This document shows positions 6,721-64,000 of a stretch of 64,000 bases of DNA, one piece after another. The stretch's first letter is position 1; each line of letters opens with the position of its first letter. Source of the stretch: Dugong dugon (Eukaryota > Chordata > Mammalia > Sirenia > Dugongidae); assembly GCA_030035585.1 (NCBI GenBank), contig CM057474.1, forward strand, positions 2,536,501-2,600,500, in the 5' to 3' direction. A program made the position numbers and the translations under genes. The notes under the pieces are model-generated. The model worked only from the letters and a program-made list of their open reading frames with translations. It ran no database searches and was not told the origin of the DNA.

Positions 6721-7184
6721 CTCCTCGGTGTGCCTTAAACTCCCATTTTTTTTCTTAGTATCTTAACCTGGCAAAATACCTTCTTTTTAGCCTCTTTATT
6801 TCAGCCTTCTTGGTTCCTTAGTCTCTCGTTCCACAACAGCTTAGAAATCAGCAAGTGTTTTACAGTGAAAATCAGGCTCACTTCTCTGTGTTTCCCATTT
6901 TCTTGGCCATCTTGGGCCTCCCAGTACTGGCTGGGTTAGTAGCCCTGAAATTTGTGTGTGCGTATATTTGTGCTCTCTAACTCTCTGAAACAACCAAGAG
7001 TCCTGAGTTTTTGTTTTCTGCTTGTCCTATGTGCACTCAGCCACTTAGTAAATGTCAAATATATCAGGAGAAAAGCTGATAGAATGTTGGGCTCACCTTG
7101 TGTTTTTCTTTTATTGAGAATAAAATCTGGAACAAGGGGCAATGATAACCTCACGGTCTACTTTGCATGTCAGACTACATATCA
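6720..7184. other. Unique DNA
   Basis: No gene or repeat recognised. Two opposing 72- and 88-codon frames overlap here and extend into RTE sequence, which argues that both are fortuitous. Confidence 0.45.
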
Positions 7185-8461: not shown

Positions 8462-9411
8462 TCAGGAACACTTAGTCCACAAGGTGACATCTTTGCTTTT
8501 CAACACTTTAAAGAAGTCTTTTGCAGCAGATTTGCCCAGTGCAATGTGTCTTTTGATTTCTTGACTGCTGCTTCCACGGGCGTTGATTGTGGATCCAAGT
8601 AAGATGAAATCCTCGACAACCTCAATCTTTTCTCCGTTTATCATGATGTTGCTTATTGGTCCAGTTGCGAGGATTTTTGTTTCTTTATGTTGAGGTGTAA
8701 TCCATACTGAAGGCTGTGGTCTTTCATCTTCATCAGTAAGTGCTTCAAGTCCTCTTCACTTTCAGCAAGCAAGCTTGTGTCATTTGCATAATGCAGGATG
8801 TTAATGAGTCTTCCTCCAATTCTGAGGCCCCGTTATTCTTAATATAGTTCAGCTTCTCAGATTATTTTCTCAGCATACAGACTGAATAGGTATGATGAAA
8901 GGATACAACCCTGACATGCACCTTTCCTGACTTTAAACCATGCAGTGTCCCCTTGCTCTGTTTGAACGACTTCCTCTAGATCCATGTACAGATTCCTCAT
9001 GAGCACAACTAAGTGTTCCAGAATTCCCATTCTCTGCAATGTTATCCATAATTTGTTATGATCCACACAGTCAAATGCCTTTGCATAGTCAGTAAAACAC
9101 AGGTAAACATCTTTCTGGTATTGTCTGCTTTCAGCCAGGATCCATCTGACAACAGCAATGATATCCCTCGTTCTGCATCCTCTCCTAAAGCCGGCTTGAA
9201 TTTCTGGCAATTCCCTGTCGATACACTGCTGCAGCCACTTTTGAATTATCTTCAGCAAAATTTTACTTTTTTGTGACATTAATGATATTGTTTGATAATT
9301 TCTGGATTCAGTTGGATCACCTTTCTTGGGAATAGGCATAAATATCAAGCTCTTCCAGGCGGTTGGCCATGTAGCTATCTTCCAAATTTCTTGGCATAGA
9401 AGAGTGAGCAC
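8462..9411 (-). pseudogene. RTE reverse transcriptase domain, catalytic site mutated
   Basis: The 184-codon frame at 9411-8857 shows RT blocks in order: FMPIPKKGDPTESRNYQTIS, QAGFRRGCRTRDI, YLCFTDYAKAFDCVDHNKLW and KGACQGCILSSYLFSLYAE. The active-site box lies further downstream in another frame (8795-8760) and reads LHYANDTSLLAES, where RTE elements have YADD. The change comes from one codon, seen as ATT at 8782-8784 on the plus strand. Another frame at 8644-8462 carries MINGEKIEVVEDFILLGSTI and continues RTE homology. The loss of a catalytic Asp plus frameshifts makes this a dead enzyme. Confidence 0.88.
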
Positions 9412-37315: not shown

Positions 37316-37747
37316 CTACCAGGAAAGGCGTGCTTCAGGGTTGTATCCTTTGACCATACCTAATTCAATCTGTATGCTGAGCAAATAGTCCGAGAAGCTG
37401 GACTGTATGAAGAAGAACATTGCATCAGGATTGGTGGAATTCGTATTTAACAACCTGTGATATGCAGATGACACAACCTTCCCTGCTAAAAGTGAAGAAG
37501 ACTTCAAGCACTTACTGATGAAGATCAAAGACCACAGCCTTCATTATGGATTACACTTCAACATAAAGAAAACAAAAATCCTCACAAATGGACCAATAAG
37601 CAACATCATGATAAATGGAGAAACGATCAAAATTGTCAAGGATTTCATTTGACTTGGATCCACAATCAACACCCATGGAAGCAGCAGTCAAGAATTCAAA
37701 TGACATATTGCATTGGGTAAATCTGCTGCAAAAAGTGTTAAAAAGCA
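37316..37747 (+). mobile_element. RTE LINE fragment, left of the nested L1
   Basis: Covers the RT active-site region ('tatgcagatgacacaacc' gives YADDTT at 37461-37478, preceded by an in-frame TGA) through 'gtcaaggatttcatttgac'. It continues at 41636, so the L1 at 37748-41617 was inserted into it. Ends in the first copy of the L1 target duplication (37730-37747). Confidence 0.9.
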
Positions 37748-40417: not shown

Positions 40418-41617
40418 AAACCCATGAAAAAATTCACATGCAAAATGTAACAATCCTTGTTGGTTACCAGGGATGGGGGGGGGGGGATACTAAATAGGCA
40501 ATAGATAAGTGGTATCTTGGGTGAGAGGTGAGACAGTACACAGTACAAGGGAAACTAACACAACCTGCACAAGGAAAGGTCATGGAGGCCCCATGGACAC
40601 ATCCAAACTCCCCAAGGGACTGAGTTGTTGGACAGAGGGCTATGCAGACCATGGTCTCGGGGAACATCTAGCTCAATTCGCATGACACTACTTATAAAGA
40701 TAATGCTCTACATTCTACCTTGGTGAGTAGTGTCTGGGGTCTTAAAAGCCTGTGAGCGGCCATCTAGGATACTACACTGGTCTCATCCCTTCCGGAGCAA
40801 GGGAGAATGAAGAGAACAGGATACAACGAAAAGATTAGTCCAAAGGACTAACTGACCACAGCTACCAAGACCTCCACCGGACTGAGTCCAGTACAGCTAG
40901 ATGGTGCCTGGCTACCACCGCTGACTGCTCTGACCAGGATAACAACAGAGGGTTCTGGACAGAGCTGGAGAAGGATGTAGAGCATAATTCTAACTCCCAA
41001 AAAAAAAAAAAAAAAAAAAAAAAAGACCAGATTTACTGGCCTAAAGGAGACTGGAGAAACCTCAAGAGTGTGGCCCCCAGACACCCCTTCAGCTCAGAGG
41101 TGAAGTTACCTTCGAGGTTCACTGTTCAGCCTGGGAGTGGACAGCCCAGTAAAACTAAATGAGACTAACGAGGTACAGGAGTCCAGTGACAAGGGCCAGA
41201 AGGCAGAGGGGGAGTAGGAAGCTGATGATAAGGAACACAAGTTGAGTAAGGATATTGTTGATGTGTTGTGAGATTGTTAACCACTGTTATAGGGCAACAT
41301 TTGTAGTAACTGTTAAATGGAAGGCTATTTTGTCCTGTAAGCCTTCATCTTGGGCGAGAATGGCAGCACAATTGGAAGAGCATAGTCAATGTCACTTAAA
41401 TGTGTACATAAAAAGTTTTGAAATGGTGTATCTTTGGCTATGTGTATTTTCACCAAAAAAAAAAAAAAAAAAGCTGAGAATTCAGAGGGTTAAAATGTTG
41501 TGGGGATGTTAACCAAAGTCATAAAACAGCATGTGTACTACCGTTACATGAGAAACTGTTTGTTCTGTAAGCCTTCACCTGAAGTACAATAAAATACTTA
41601 AGAAAAAAAAGAAAAAA
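40418..41617 (+). other. L1 3' UTR, 1.2 kb, with G-run and tandem 3' ends
   Basis: Starts after the ORF2 stop, has a G13 run (40474-40486), the landmarks shared with 975-1768 and 49575-50510, and an internal A run (about 40999-41024). The last 380 bp hold two similar 3'-end modules (41265-41352 and 41500-41581) separated by text like an older L1 3' end and an A run at 41455-41473. The final end is 'acaataaaatacttaag' plus A-rich tail. This is longer than human (about 0.2 kb) or mouse L1 3' UTRs. Confidence 0.85.
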
Positions 41618-41635
41618 AAAAAGTGTTAAAAAGCA

Positions 41636-43458: not shown

Positions 43459-43865
43459 CGCTACCATTTTTAATATCCTGCTAATATTTTCTTGGCAAGG
43501 TGGTGAACTAATGCAGACTATTGATACTGTTGGCTCCCTTAAATTCAACCTTAGGGGAGTGACAAAATCAACAAGCAGATTGTTGGATCTGAAAAACTAA
43601 TACATAATTTTTAAGAAATGTAGTATTTATTTCCCTTTGTTGGAGGGAAATGGCAGTCCAGAATTGGAAGGAAAGATCTAAGGAGAGCTTTTAATTATGA
43701 TATTTTCTCTCCTCCACATTACACTGGGCTGCTCATTGCTGTGTGCATTAACACTATGTAGATGAACAAATGGCCACATTAATCAAGCACAGACAGGTAA
43801 ACAGAGTGAAATCAGGTCATCATCACAGGTTGGGTTCTTCTGAGGCAGAGGCTGAGACAGTGTTT
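43459..43865. other. Unique DNA
   Basis: No gene or repeat recognised. Confidence 0.4.
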
Positions 43866-44660
43866 GGGGTACAATATGTAGATGATACAACCTTGCTTGC
43901 TGAAAGCAAAGAGGAATTGAAGCACTTACTGATGAAGATCGAAGACTACAGCCTTCAGTATGGATTACACCTCAACATAAAGAAAACAAAATTCCTCACA
44001 ACTAGACCAATAAGCAACATTATGATAAACAAAGAAAACACTGAAATTGACAAGGATTTCATTTTACTTGGATCCATAATCAATGCCCTTGGAAGCAGCA
44101 GCCAAGAAATCAAACGACACATTGCACTGGGCAAATATGCTGCAAAAGACCTCTTAAAAGTGTTGAGAAGCAAAGATGTCACTTTGAGGACTAAGGCGAG
44201 CCTGACTAAAGTCATGATATTTTCAATCACCTCAGACGCATGCAAAAGCTGGACAATGAGTAAGGAAGACCGAAGAAGAATTTATGCCTTTTAATTAGAG
44301 TGCTGGCAGAGGATACTGAATATACTACGGACTGCCAGAAGAACGAAGAAGTTTGTCTTGGAAGAAGTACACCCAGAGTGCTCCTTAGAAGCCAGGACGG
44401 TAAGACTTTGTCTCATGTATTTTGGACATGTTATCAGGAGGGACCAGTCCCTGGAGAAGGACATCATGCTTGATAAAGTAGAGGGTCAGCAAAAAAGAGG
44501 AAGACCCTCGAAGAGATGATTGACACAGTGGCTGCAGCAATGGGCTCAAACATAGCAATGATTGTGAGGATGGCGCAGGACTGGGCAGTGCTTCATTCTG
44601 TTGCATATAGGGTCGCTGTGAGTCGGAACTGACTCAAGAGCACCTAACAATGACACCAAG
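43866..44660 (+). mobile_element. RTE LINE 3' fragment
   Basis: From the RT active site (43872-43892, QYVDDTT, with Ala changed to Val beside an intact Asp pair) through 'tgatgaagatcgaagactac', 'gaagaagtacacccagagtg' and 'agagggtcagcaaaaaagag' to the tail 'actcaagagcacctaacaat'. Codons stay open from 43770 to 44294, then a stop interrupts. 5'-truncated. Confidence 0.9.
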
Positions 44661-60500: not shown

Positions 60501-60680
60501 CACAACACTTAGTACTTTACAATGAAAATAATAGCTACATGAAGAATACTCATGGAAATGAATATTGCAACTGCTGATTTATTTTCCTCCTCCTCTTCCT
60601 CTTTTCTTTTCTTTATATTTTTTTCCATTCCCTATTACCTCTAACTTAAAACATTTTTTCAAGAATTAAAGTTACTTTCG
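60501..60680. other. Unique A+T-rich flank of the L1
   Basis: Pyrimidine-rich run (60580-60640), then the likely L1 target-site copy. No gene. Confidence 0.4.
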
Positions 60681-61527
60681 AGGGAGGGGCAAGATGGCGC
60701 TCTAGGCAGAAACACCACGCCGTCCCTCCACAGCAAAGATCCGAAAAACTAAGCCTAACAGAGAATCAACAATCCTGAAACCCTAGAACACCAAATGAAG
60801 AGATAAAGAACTCAACCAAACACCAAACGGAGTGAGAATACTAAAAGAGAACGGAGAACGAGGAGAGACTCAGGCAGAGATTCCTTACCAGCTAACGCAG
60901 CGCGGATCCACCATCTTGGATTCCTATCGGAGACCAGCAAACGGGAAAGCAGCCTTGCAGAGCATCTGGTCGGAGACAGAACGACCGGCGATGTATGCCT
61001 CTGTACCTTCTGGCCAGGCTGAGCTGTGAAAATTGAGACCGACTCCCCCAGACCTCATAGCTGCATCGGTGCGATCCCTGGGAACTTTGCAGTTCTTTAA
61101 CTTTTCTGATTTTTATTTGGTCATTCTTTCCTTTTCTTTCTCTTCCCCCTTCTGGTTTCCTCTATCCCATAGTCTCTCATCTGTACATTCCAACGACAAG
61201 CTCCCCTAGCATTCTTTTATGTTTGTACGCTTTTTGCTCCTCCTCCTCTCTCCTCTCTCCCATATCCAGCTTAGCTTCACACATAACCATCTTCCCGCTG
61301 CACCCTACCTAACTGCACCGTGCACTAGACATCACATCACCAAGAGGTGCAGGCACGCCCTATTGGAACCTGCCCAGCACTGACTACCGACCGTCCTGGT
61401 GGCTGCGGTGAGTGCCACAAGCAACCCATCCCAGTGGCTCCTCCTCAACTAGATCTGCCCAGCTGTACCACAAGAACGAAAAAAAAAAAAAAATCTACAA
61501 TCAATAAACGAGAGAAATATCTACTGA
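60681..61527 (+). promoter_or_regulatory. L1 5' UTR with internal promoter
   Basis: The L1 5' UTR drives its own RNA polymerase II transcription. A YY1-type site CAAGATGGCG lies at 60690-60699, about 10 bases from the 5' end, where human L1 has its YY1 site that sets the start point. A second, inverted YY1-like core CCATCTTGG is at 60911-60919. The region is richer in G+C than its surroundings. Homologous text forms the left half of the element at 49133. Confidence 0.8.
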
Positions 61528-62577
61528 ATGCCCCGAAAACAGCAAACAATATCAAAACATTTACAAAAACAAGACAAGATGGCTCCAATAGGCGTCCAAA
61601 TTAAAACACCAGATAACTCTCCTGTGGAAGAAAATGCACTAGAAGTACCTGATACGGAACTCAAATCACTAATACTCGGAATTTTCCAAGAACTGAGGCA
61701 AAAAGCTGACAAACATGAGGAAAAAATAGACAAATTTATGGAAAATACAGACAAAAAATTGGAAGAATTCAGGAAGATGATGCAAGAACAAAATGCCAAA
61801 ATAAATTCACAACTCGAAATTATACAAAAACAACAATTAGAAATCCAAAAGATAAACAACAAGATTTCAGAAATGGACAGTGTCATAGAAGGGCTGAGAA
61901 GTAGATTTCAAACCATGGAAGACAGGATCAGTGGAACTGAAGACAAACACTTGGATACAACTCTGTTTCAGGAAAACTCAGAAAAAAGAACAAAGAAAAA
62001 TGAAGAGACCCTGAGAGTTATGTGGGACACAATTAAAAGCAAAAACTTACGAGTGATTGGCATACCAGAACAGGGGGAGAAAACAGAAAACACAGAGAGG
62101 ATCATTGAGGAACTGCTGACAGAAAACTTTCCCAATATCATGAAAGATGAAAAGCTGGTCATCCAAGATGCTCAACGAACCCCATATAGAAGAGACCCCA
62201 AAAGAAAATCACCAAGACATATCATATTCACACTCGCTAAAACTAAAGACAAACAAAGAATCCTGAGAGCAGCTCATGAAAAACAAGAAGTCACATACAG
62301 AGGAGAAACAATAAGACTAAGCTCAGATTATTCAGCAGAAACCATGCAGGCAAGAAGGCAATGGGATGACATATATAAAATCTTGAAAGAAAAAAATTGT
62401 CAGCCAAGAATAATATATCCTGCAAAACTTTCATTCAGATTTGATGGTGAAATTAGGTCATTTCCAGATAAACAGAAACTAAAGGAATATGCAAAAGTCA
62501 AACCAAACTTACAAGAATTATTAAAGGGAGTTCTTCGATCTGAGGACAAACAGCTTAAGCCCTCAGGCAGGACCTAG
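61528..62577 (+). CDS. L1 ORF1 protein, intact
   Basis: 349 codons, close to the human ORF1p length of 338. ORF1p is an RNA-binding, nucleic-acid-chaperone protein that trimerises and coats L1 RNA in cytoplasmic particles. Visible order: a basic N-terminus (1-40), a long coiled coil rich in Lys/Glu/Gln with heptads (about 45-160, the trimer stalk), an RRM-type domain starting at NLRVIGIPE (173-181) and including a basic stretch ending PRHIIF (229-234), and a C-terminal domain (about 258-338) with RIIYPAKLSFRFDGE (294-308) and ARRQWDDIYKIL (275-286). The first ATG of the frame is used and follows an in-frame-free upstream leader. The stop is TAG at 62575-62577. No damage seen. Confidence 0.96.
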   Translation: MPRKQQTISKHLQKQDKMAPIGVQIKTPDNSPVEENALEVPDTELKSLILGIFQELRQKADKHEEKIDKFMENTDKKLEEFRKMMQEQNAKINSQLEIIQKQQLEIQKINNKISEMDSVIEGLRSRFQTMEDRISGTEDKHLDTTLFQENSEKRTKKNEETLRVMWDTIKSKNLRVIGIPEQGEKTENTERIIEELLTENFPNIMKDEKLVIQDAQRTPYRRDPKRKSPRHIIFTLAKTKDKQRILRAAHEKQEVTYRGETIRLSSDYSAETMQARRQWDDIYKILKEKNCQPRIIYPAKLSFRFDGEIRSFPDKQKLKEYAKVKPNLQELLKGVLRSEDKQLKPSGRT

Positions 62578-63008
62578 GACCTAGGACGCAGGTTAACATG
62601 AACCAGATACCATTCTAGGAACTGAACTACAGACGACTTTCCAAAAACAAAAGATATACAACAGGGAATCAGAGAAATCAATCAAAGGATGACAACAACA
62701 TCAAAACAATGAAAGAGGGAACAAACGGCATAGGTATAGAACCTTCTAAAGGAGAAGAAGGCAAGGCGATACCAAGTAACGGTAGACTGCTTCAAAATTA
62801 TAAAGATAAGGGTAAAATTCATGGTAACCACAAAAAAAGTTAACAAACCAACTCATAAAAATAAAGACGAAAAACATAAAGTCTCAACAAAACCAAAACC
62901 TACAAAAACAAAAGAAATGAACACAAAATCCACAAACAAAAGAAACTCAGCACAAGAGAGTAAGAAGAACAAAGAAAACTTCAGCATCACAAAAAAAAGC
63001 ACTACAAA
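62578..63008 (+). other. L1 inter-ORF segment, 431 bp
   Basis: Separates ORF1 and ORF2. It is much longer than the 63 bp of human L1 but like the longer spacers of older mammalian L1s. It contains a 63-codon Lys/Thr/Asn-rich open frame (62821-63012) whose TGA overlaps the ORF2 ATG as ATGA. I do not recognise a protein in it. Its composition follows the A-rich DNA. Confidence 0.8.
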
Positions 63009-64000
63009 ATGACAGCAACAAATTCACATCTATCAATAATTACACTGAACATAAATGGACTCAATGCACCCATAAAGCGACGGAGAGTGGCAGAATGGAT
63101 AAGAAAACAGGATCCATCTATTTGCTGTCTACAAGAGACACATCTTAGAAACAAAGATGTGAATTTATTAAAAATCAAAGGTTGGAAAAAAATATATCAA
63201 GCTAACAACTATCAAAAAAGAGCAGGAGTGGCAATTCTAATCTCAGATAAAATAGACTTTAAAACAAAATCTACCATAAAAGACAAAGAAGGACACTATA
63301 TAATGATTAAGGGGATGATCCATCATGAAGACATAACCATAATAAATATCTATGCACCCAATGACAGGGCTCCAAAATACATAAAAAAAACTCTAACAGC
63401 ACTGAAAAGAGAAATTGACAGTTCCACAATAATAGTAGGAGACTTCAACACACCAGTCTCAGTAAAGGACAGAACAACTAAAAAGAAACTCAGCAAAGAT
63501 ACAGAAGACCTAAAGGACACAATCAGCCAACTGGACCTCATAGACATATATAGAACAATCCATCCAACCGCTGCAAAGTACACATTCTTTTCCAATGCAC
63601 ATGGAACGTTCTCCAGAATAGACCACATCTTAGGCCACAGAGCAATCCTCAACAAGATCCAAAATGCTGAGATAATTCACAGTATCTTCTCTGACCACAG
63701 TGCCATCAAGGTAGAAATTAATACTAGAAAGAGCAAGGAAAAAAAATCAAACACATGGAAACTGAATAATAATCTGCTTACACATCAATGGGTAATAGAA
63801 GAAATCAGAGATGGAATCAAAAAATTCCTAGAATCAAATGAAAATGAAAACACATCATACCAAAACCTTTGGGACACAGCAAAGGCAGTCCTCAGAGGAC
63901 AATTTATAGCAATAGATGCACATATCAAAAAAGAAGAAAGGGACAAAATCAAAACATTAACTACAGAACTCAAACAAATAGAAAGAGAACAACAAAAAAA
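63009..64000 (+). CDS. L1 ORF2 protein, N-terminal 330 codons (continues past window)
   Basis: ORF2p is the L1 endonuclease/reverse transcriptase. The frame from ATG at 63009 is open to base 64000 (330 complete codons, no stop). The APE-type endonuclease domain is complete and every key residue falls at the position known from human ORF2p: Asn14 (in LNINGLN), Glu43 (LQETH), Asp145 and Asn147 (VGDFN), Asp205 (RIDHIL), Asp229 and His230 (FSDHS). After about residue 240 the linker toward the RT domain begins. The start overlaps the stop of a small upstream frame (ATGA), so translation probably relies on reinitiation or a similar mechanism, as proposed for other L1s. RT, cysteine motif and stop lie outside the window. 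Confidence 0.95.
   Translation, partial: MTATNSHLSIITLNINGLNAPIKRRRVAEWIRKQDPSICCLQETHLRNKDVNLLKIKGWKKIYQANNYQKRAGVAILISDKIDFKTKSTIKDKEGHYIMIKGMIHHEDITIINIYAPNDRAPKYIKKTLTALKREIDSSTIIVGDFNTPVSVKDRTTKKKLSKDTEDLKDTISQLDLIDIYRTIHPTAAKYTFFSNAHGTFSRIDHILGHRAILNKIQNAEIIHSIFSDHSAIKVEINTRKSKEKKSNTWKLNNNLLTHQWVIEEIRDGIKKFLESNENENTSYQNLWDTAKAVLRGQFIAIDAHIKKEERDKIKTLTTELKQIEREQQK

Follow-up and report, generated by a model that had tools for sequence, protein, structure and literature searches.

The 5′ portion of a LINE-1 element, most likely of afrotherian lineage, with open visible reading frames and a 431-bp ORF1–ORF2 spacer

Results

Structure of the L1 element at the right edge of the window

The 64-kb stretch of DNA analysed here (the window) carries in its last 3.3 kb the 5′ portion of an L1 element on the forward strand (approximately 60681–64000). 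The window ends at 64000, and approximately 2.8 kb of ORF2 (reverse transcriptase and Cys domain), the 3′ UTR, the tail and the right repeat lie beyond it. The element starts near 60681 with a G-rich stretch, followed near its position +10 by CAAGATGGC (60690–60698, forward strand), which was located by motif search and which we take to be the YY1-type motif whose presence and role are known from human L1. The same 9-mer recurs within ORF1 (61575) and in reversed form at 6906, and is therefore weak evidence by itself. An A-rich stretch behind a T run (approximately 60661–60680, forward strand) was read from the sequence as a possible left target-site duplication, the partner of which would lie beyond the window. 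The 5′ UTR, the presumed internal promoter region, covers 847 bp (60681–61527, forward strand), with a 5′ boundary accurate to within a few bases. It holds 29 CpG dinucleotides at an observed/expected ratio of 0.60, compared with 0.25 in the left 1-kb flank, 0.26 in ORF1 and 0.14 in ORF2; taken alone, this CpG retention settles nothing. Antisense ATG ORFs of 44, 37, 30 and 121 codons touch the 5′ UTR.

ORF1 (61528–62577, forward strand) is unbroken over 349 codons and was identified by ORF scan, Pfam and structure matches. Two Pfam domains were above cut-off, namely, Transposase_22/RRM (PF02994, residues 173–267, E 5.6e-21) and the L1 dsRBD-like C-terminal domain (PF17490, residues 270–333, E 9.6e-25). 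The protein matches human ORF1p (2ykp) across residues 122–339, and its residues 65–167 match human ORF1p chain 6fia (E 1.8e-5), presumably the coiled coil. ORF2 (63009–63998, forward strand) begins with an APE-type endonuclease, as determined by ORF scan, Pfam and alignment to 8sxt, and runs off the window after its first 330 codons; its extension upstream is blocked by a TAA at 62961. Residues 1–329 were aligned to residues 1–329 of human L1 ORF2p (8sxt) without gaps (E 1.9e-131), and all ten of the endonuclease residues that we presumed from general knowledge to be the ones to check (N14, E43, Y115, D145, N147, T192, S202, D205, D229 and H230) are present. The chance of these frames being open by base composition alone is approximately 2e-11 for ORF1 and 9e-11 for the visible ORF2, and both are thus considered real coding sequence.

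The element resembles human LINE-1 (ORF2p 8sxt, 8uw3 and 9hdo; ORF1p 2ykp) in its ORF1 RRM and C-terminal domain, in the gap-free ORF2 1–329 and in its active-site residues. An earlier note on this DNA had described a full-length-type L1 with a complete 5′ start and a YY1-type site, an undamaged 349-codon ORF1, an ORF2 lacking stops in its 330 visible codons, and Asn14, Glu43, Asp145, Asn147, Asp205, Asp229 and His230 at the human positions. This description is borne out by the 5′ end near 60681, with a motif that is non-unique in the window, by the two L1 domains in ORF1, by the lack of a stop in ORF2 up to the window edge, and by the colinearity with human ORF2p, the seven residues falling at the human positions because the alignment has no gaps. 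Across ORF1, spacer and visible ORF2 (61528–63998), A content is 46.7%; the value given in PMC4072516 is 39–44.5% for whole L1 coding regions, and the two are not like for like, most of ORF2 being unseen here.

The ORF1–ORF2 spacer and its small ORFs

The intergenic region between ORF1 and ORF2 (62578–63008, forward strand) was passed over by the earlier note and is the most interesting detail of the element. This spacer has a length of 431 bp and is 52% A. Two small ORFs are present on the forward strand: one of 44 codons (62709–62843, ORF scan), which overlaps the next by 23 nt, and one of 63 codons (62821–63012), the TGA of which overlaps the ORF2 start as ATGA (63009–63012). The ATGA overlap itself follows from the second ORF2 codon beginning with A, and the start context of the 63-codon ORF (TTC ATG G) was judged weak. 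In a post hoc test with dinucleotide shuffles, picked after the feature had been seen, an ATG ORF of at least 62 codons ended exactly at the ORF2 start in 25 of 5000 shuffles and, in a second run, in 20 of 5000; 46 of 5000 had such an ORF ending no more than approximately 20 nt from the ORF2 start, and 272 of 5000 had a closed one at any place in the spacer. Neither small ORF had a Pfam match (up to E 1), and the predicted RNA fold of the spacer was not more stable than that of shuffles (z −0.81; a fold as good was reached by 25 of 100). No Rfam match was obtained anywhere in the window at gathering scores.

Other repeats in the window

Searches with the element DNA, the window ORFs and a full-length rabbit ORF2 detected five other L1 places in the window, all of which match only the second part of ORF2; for the 5′ UTR, ORF1, the spacer and the start of ORF2, the same queries turned up nothing in the 64 kb beyond the focal element. 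One is a 5′-truncated copy at 37.7–41.6 kb (the 38-kb copy), in which stops and frame changes precede 38192 and 741 codons are open thereafter, and the rest are broken pieces at 45.1–47.1, 13.3–13.7, 43.4 and 0.2–0.4 kb. These five 3′ pieces bear out the contrast drawn in the earlier note, which had called the remaining copies of the window 5′-truncated or broken. The 38-kb copy is flanked by exact 18-bp repeats (37730–37747 and 41618–41635); apparently, the L1 (37730–41635) was inserted into an RTE/BovB-like element, and the 18-bp repeat is its target-site repeat. Over 2,300 aligned columns, the 38-kb copy shares 86% identity with the one at 45 kb. The 3′ UTR of the 38-kb copy (40418–41617) measures approximately 1.2 kb, contains internal A runs at 40999–41024 and near 41455, and looks by eye to hold a diverged internal duplication.

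Two reverse transcriptase ORFs, with 184 open codons on the reverse strand (8857–9411) and 174 on the forward strand (43770–44294), are presumably of the RTE/BovB type. In addition, a SINE stretch that we take to be of the AfroSINE type has four matches in the window, including the stretch from which the pattern was copied, where zero are expected.

Relatives and lineage of the element

The closest protein to ORF1 is P0001, which is filed under Pseudomonas sp. MOB-449 and shares 89% identity over 63% of ORF1. The best mammal-named ORF1 matches are copies annotated in Elephas, Loxodonta and Trichechus, at only 54–57% identity, which implies another subfamily or another afrotherian order. For ORF2, the closest protein is P0022 (95% over 74% of the ORF2 piece), which is apparently frameshifted; the best named match among the 120 matches listed is from pangolin (63%), and no afrotherian-named protein is among these 120. 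Judged from sequence, P0001 and P0022 are copies of the focal element's own family. The ORF2 of the 38-kb copy has its best mammal-named match in Loxodonta, and in a tree of 17 ORF2 proteins this copy joins the Loxodonta protein (100/100) and is closer still to P0155, also filed under Pseudomonas sp. MOB-449. The tree places the 38-kb copy; the focal copy shares no overlap with the region compared, and its own lineage is judged by the ranking of matches. P0001 and P0155 are L1 ORF1/ORF2 pieces, 89% and 93% identical to L1s of the window, and are apparent mammalian contamination of a bacterial assembly. Four scans of viral contigs and two of genome contigs, from which the window's own or near genomes may be excluded, returned no L1 relatives. 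Three bacterial MAG loci in the genome contigs (L001–L003), with 22–24% identity to the endonuclease, were set aside as distant.

Sequence wear of the focal copy

Differences from the two closest relatives, P0001 and P0022, were polarised against other mammals, for ORF1 by the simple majority of up to five relatives. Over 221 ORF1 codons compared with P0001, 25 differences were observed, including 10 in the focal copy, 9 in P0001 and 6 that were unclear. Over approximately 245 ORF2 codons compared with P0022, 12 of 14 differences were kept, the other two (246 and 247) being located at the P0022 frameshift; 5 were focal, 3 belonged to P0022 and 4 were unclear. Derived residues in the focal copy thus total 15 across the 466 codons that could be compared. 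With roughly three in four random changes altering the amino acid, the focal copy would be about 1.4% from its source if all 15 changes were post-insertion, an upper estimate because some derived residues may be inherited from the subfamily. Unless the source subfamily had them, these 15 residues speak against the copy having inserted very recently. The Leu150Val change, which lies three positions from the catalytic Asn147, was seen in none of the 120 relatives listed and Gln127Lys in one of the 120; Ile15 is found also in human ORF2p structures. The focal copy departs at 2 of 55 highly conserved endonuclease columns (one departure being common to P0022), which equals the median of the 120 relatives listed.

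Discussion

In this study, the right edge of the window was analysed, and it holds, with very high confidence, the 5′ 3.3 kb of an L1 of most likely afrotherian lineage, with a complete 5′ end and all visible parts open. The afrotherian setting assumed by the earlier note is graded here as likely: the ORF1 matches, the tree of the 38-kb copy and the AfroSINE- and BovB-like repeats speak for it, and the 120 listed ORF2 matches, without a named afrotherian, speak against it. The AfroSINE-like and RTE/BovB-like matches fit Afrotheria, in which full-length BovBs number thousands according to PMC6036668; the same source names ruminants as the sole mammals in which BovB and L1 are both currently active. 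The element is also like afrotherian L1 (AfroLINE; PMC1764860) in its best named ORF1 matches and in the long spacers that PMC4072516 reports for Afrotheria.

Following established L1 biology, the internal promoter would give rise to L1 RNA and, from it, to ORF1p and ORF2p; the ORF2p endonuclease would nick a T-rich site, where the reverse transcriptase would copy the RNA by target-primed reverse transcription. Across the 431-bp spacer, ORF2 might, less surely, be reached by reinitiating ribosomes, aided by the spacer small ORFs, of which the 63-codon one stops at the ORF2 AUG.

Whether the copy can still follow this course depends on how the visible and the unseen parts are weighed. We judge it unlikely, at a real but minor chance, that the remaining ORF2 is open. 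The copy is on balance probably a dead full-length L1, in which the 5′ end is complete and the visible frames are open, and ORF2 is interrupted, 3′-rearranged or spoiled beyond the window, leaving at most an endonuclease-bearing fragment. The 15 derived residues in 466 codons and Leu150Val, absent from the 120 relatives listed, favour this reading. Under a model with 0.1 frame-breaking indel per substitution, in which the values of the two ORFs are multiplied, both visible ORFs survive in approximately 5.6% of copies at 1% divergence or 0.3% at 2%. Most full-length human L1 loci are incompetent according to PMC4176336, which adds that certain truncated ORF2 proteins remain able to damage DNA. 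However, approximately 2 kb of coding sequence is open here without a stop or frameshift, and with 2 departures at 55 highly conserved endonuclease columns the copy is no different from the median listed relative.

A currently competent source element, as the earlier note had proposed, appears improbable. The intact visible parts and the CpG-richer 5′ UTR are in line with it, but 2.8 kb lies beyond the window, the copy carries derived residues, and its spacer is of the long kind that was inhibitory by approximately 26-fold in a megabat construct (PMC4072516). We give next to no credence to the reading as an ORF1-derived host gene, exapted in the manner of L1TD1 and not a mobile element: ORF1 matches the solved L1TD1 domain 2lr6 (E 1.8e-15), as any ORF1 would, and such a gene is contradicted by the colinear ORF2 endonuclease after ORF1 and the 5′ UTR-like stretch before it.

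The spacer arrangement is the one part of this L1 that deserves further attention. In the L1s of 31 mammals, spacers range from 18 to 580 bp with a median of 63 bp, against 431 bp here, and long ones are reported from marsupials, Laurasiatheria and Afrotheria (PMC4072516). The megabat L1 lineage 1 of the same source, another lineage and a reconstructed extinct L1 that is likened to ours by spacer length and small AUG ORFs, has a spacer of 445 bp with small AUG ORFs. Placed in human L1, this megabat spacer was the one that reduced retrotransposition approximately 26-fold, and a version without AUGs brought a further drop of approximately 3.3-fold, which in the authors' view fits reinitiation after small ORFs; the survival of long spacers is termed "difficult to reconcile" there.

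The 63-codon ORF with its ATGA overlap suggests, from sequence, a possible termination–reinitiation bridge. This is a testable hint, and the small ORF is treated only as a lead, because the shuffle test was post hoc and the start context is weak. In a more general form, ORF2 of long-spacer L1s would be translated by relay: ribosomes translating a spacer small ORF (here 62821–63012) would terminate at a codon overlapping the ORF2 AUG, and a spacer length above 400 bp would thereby be tolerated; we regard this as a long shot. If it were true, long-spacer L1s would have in this small ORF a third coding unit, with a regulatory role, and the persistence of costly long spacers would be explained. 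Should the spacer small ORF prove to be kept across copies, it would give a handle on the translation of ORF2 at a distance of hundreds of bases from the end of ORF1, and on the survival of long spacers, both being questions left by PMC4072516. Among the titles and abstract openings listed for L1 spacers and reinitiation, no description of a small ORF ending at the ORF2 AUG was found.

As a single L1 copy, the element matters little, given that full-length, little-diverged L1s number thousands in the Asian elephant. A 2025 preprint (PMC12424770) counts 4,143 potentially active L1s there, judged by a length within 10% of 6.1 kb and a divergence of at most 5% and not by open frames. PMC1764860 describes clones from Afrotheria that contain an open reading frame, as well as L1s that have close copies in their genomes, and recent L1 activity in Afrotheria is thereby already long known. 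In view of these two sources, a copy in which ORF1 is open and ORF2 is seen in part is expected and not surprising. A minor observation concerns annotation: the elephant and manatee proteins P0003, P0004, P0006 and P0142 carry L1 ORF1 or ORF2 sequence under the names of gene isoforms (GNB1-like, NUP42 and ZYG11B), and both Loxodonta and Trichechus have a named NUP42 isoform that contains ORF1.
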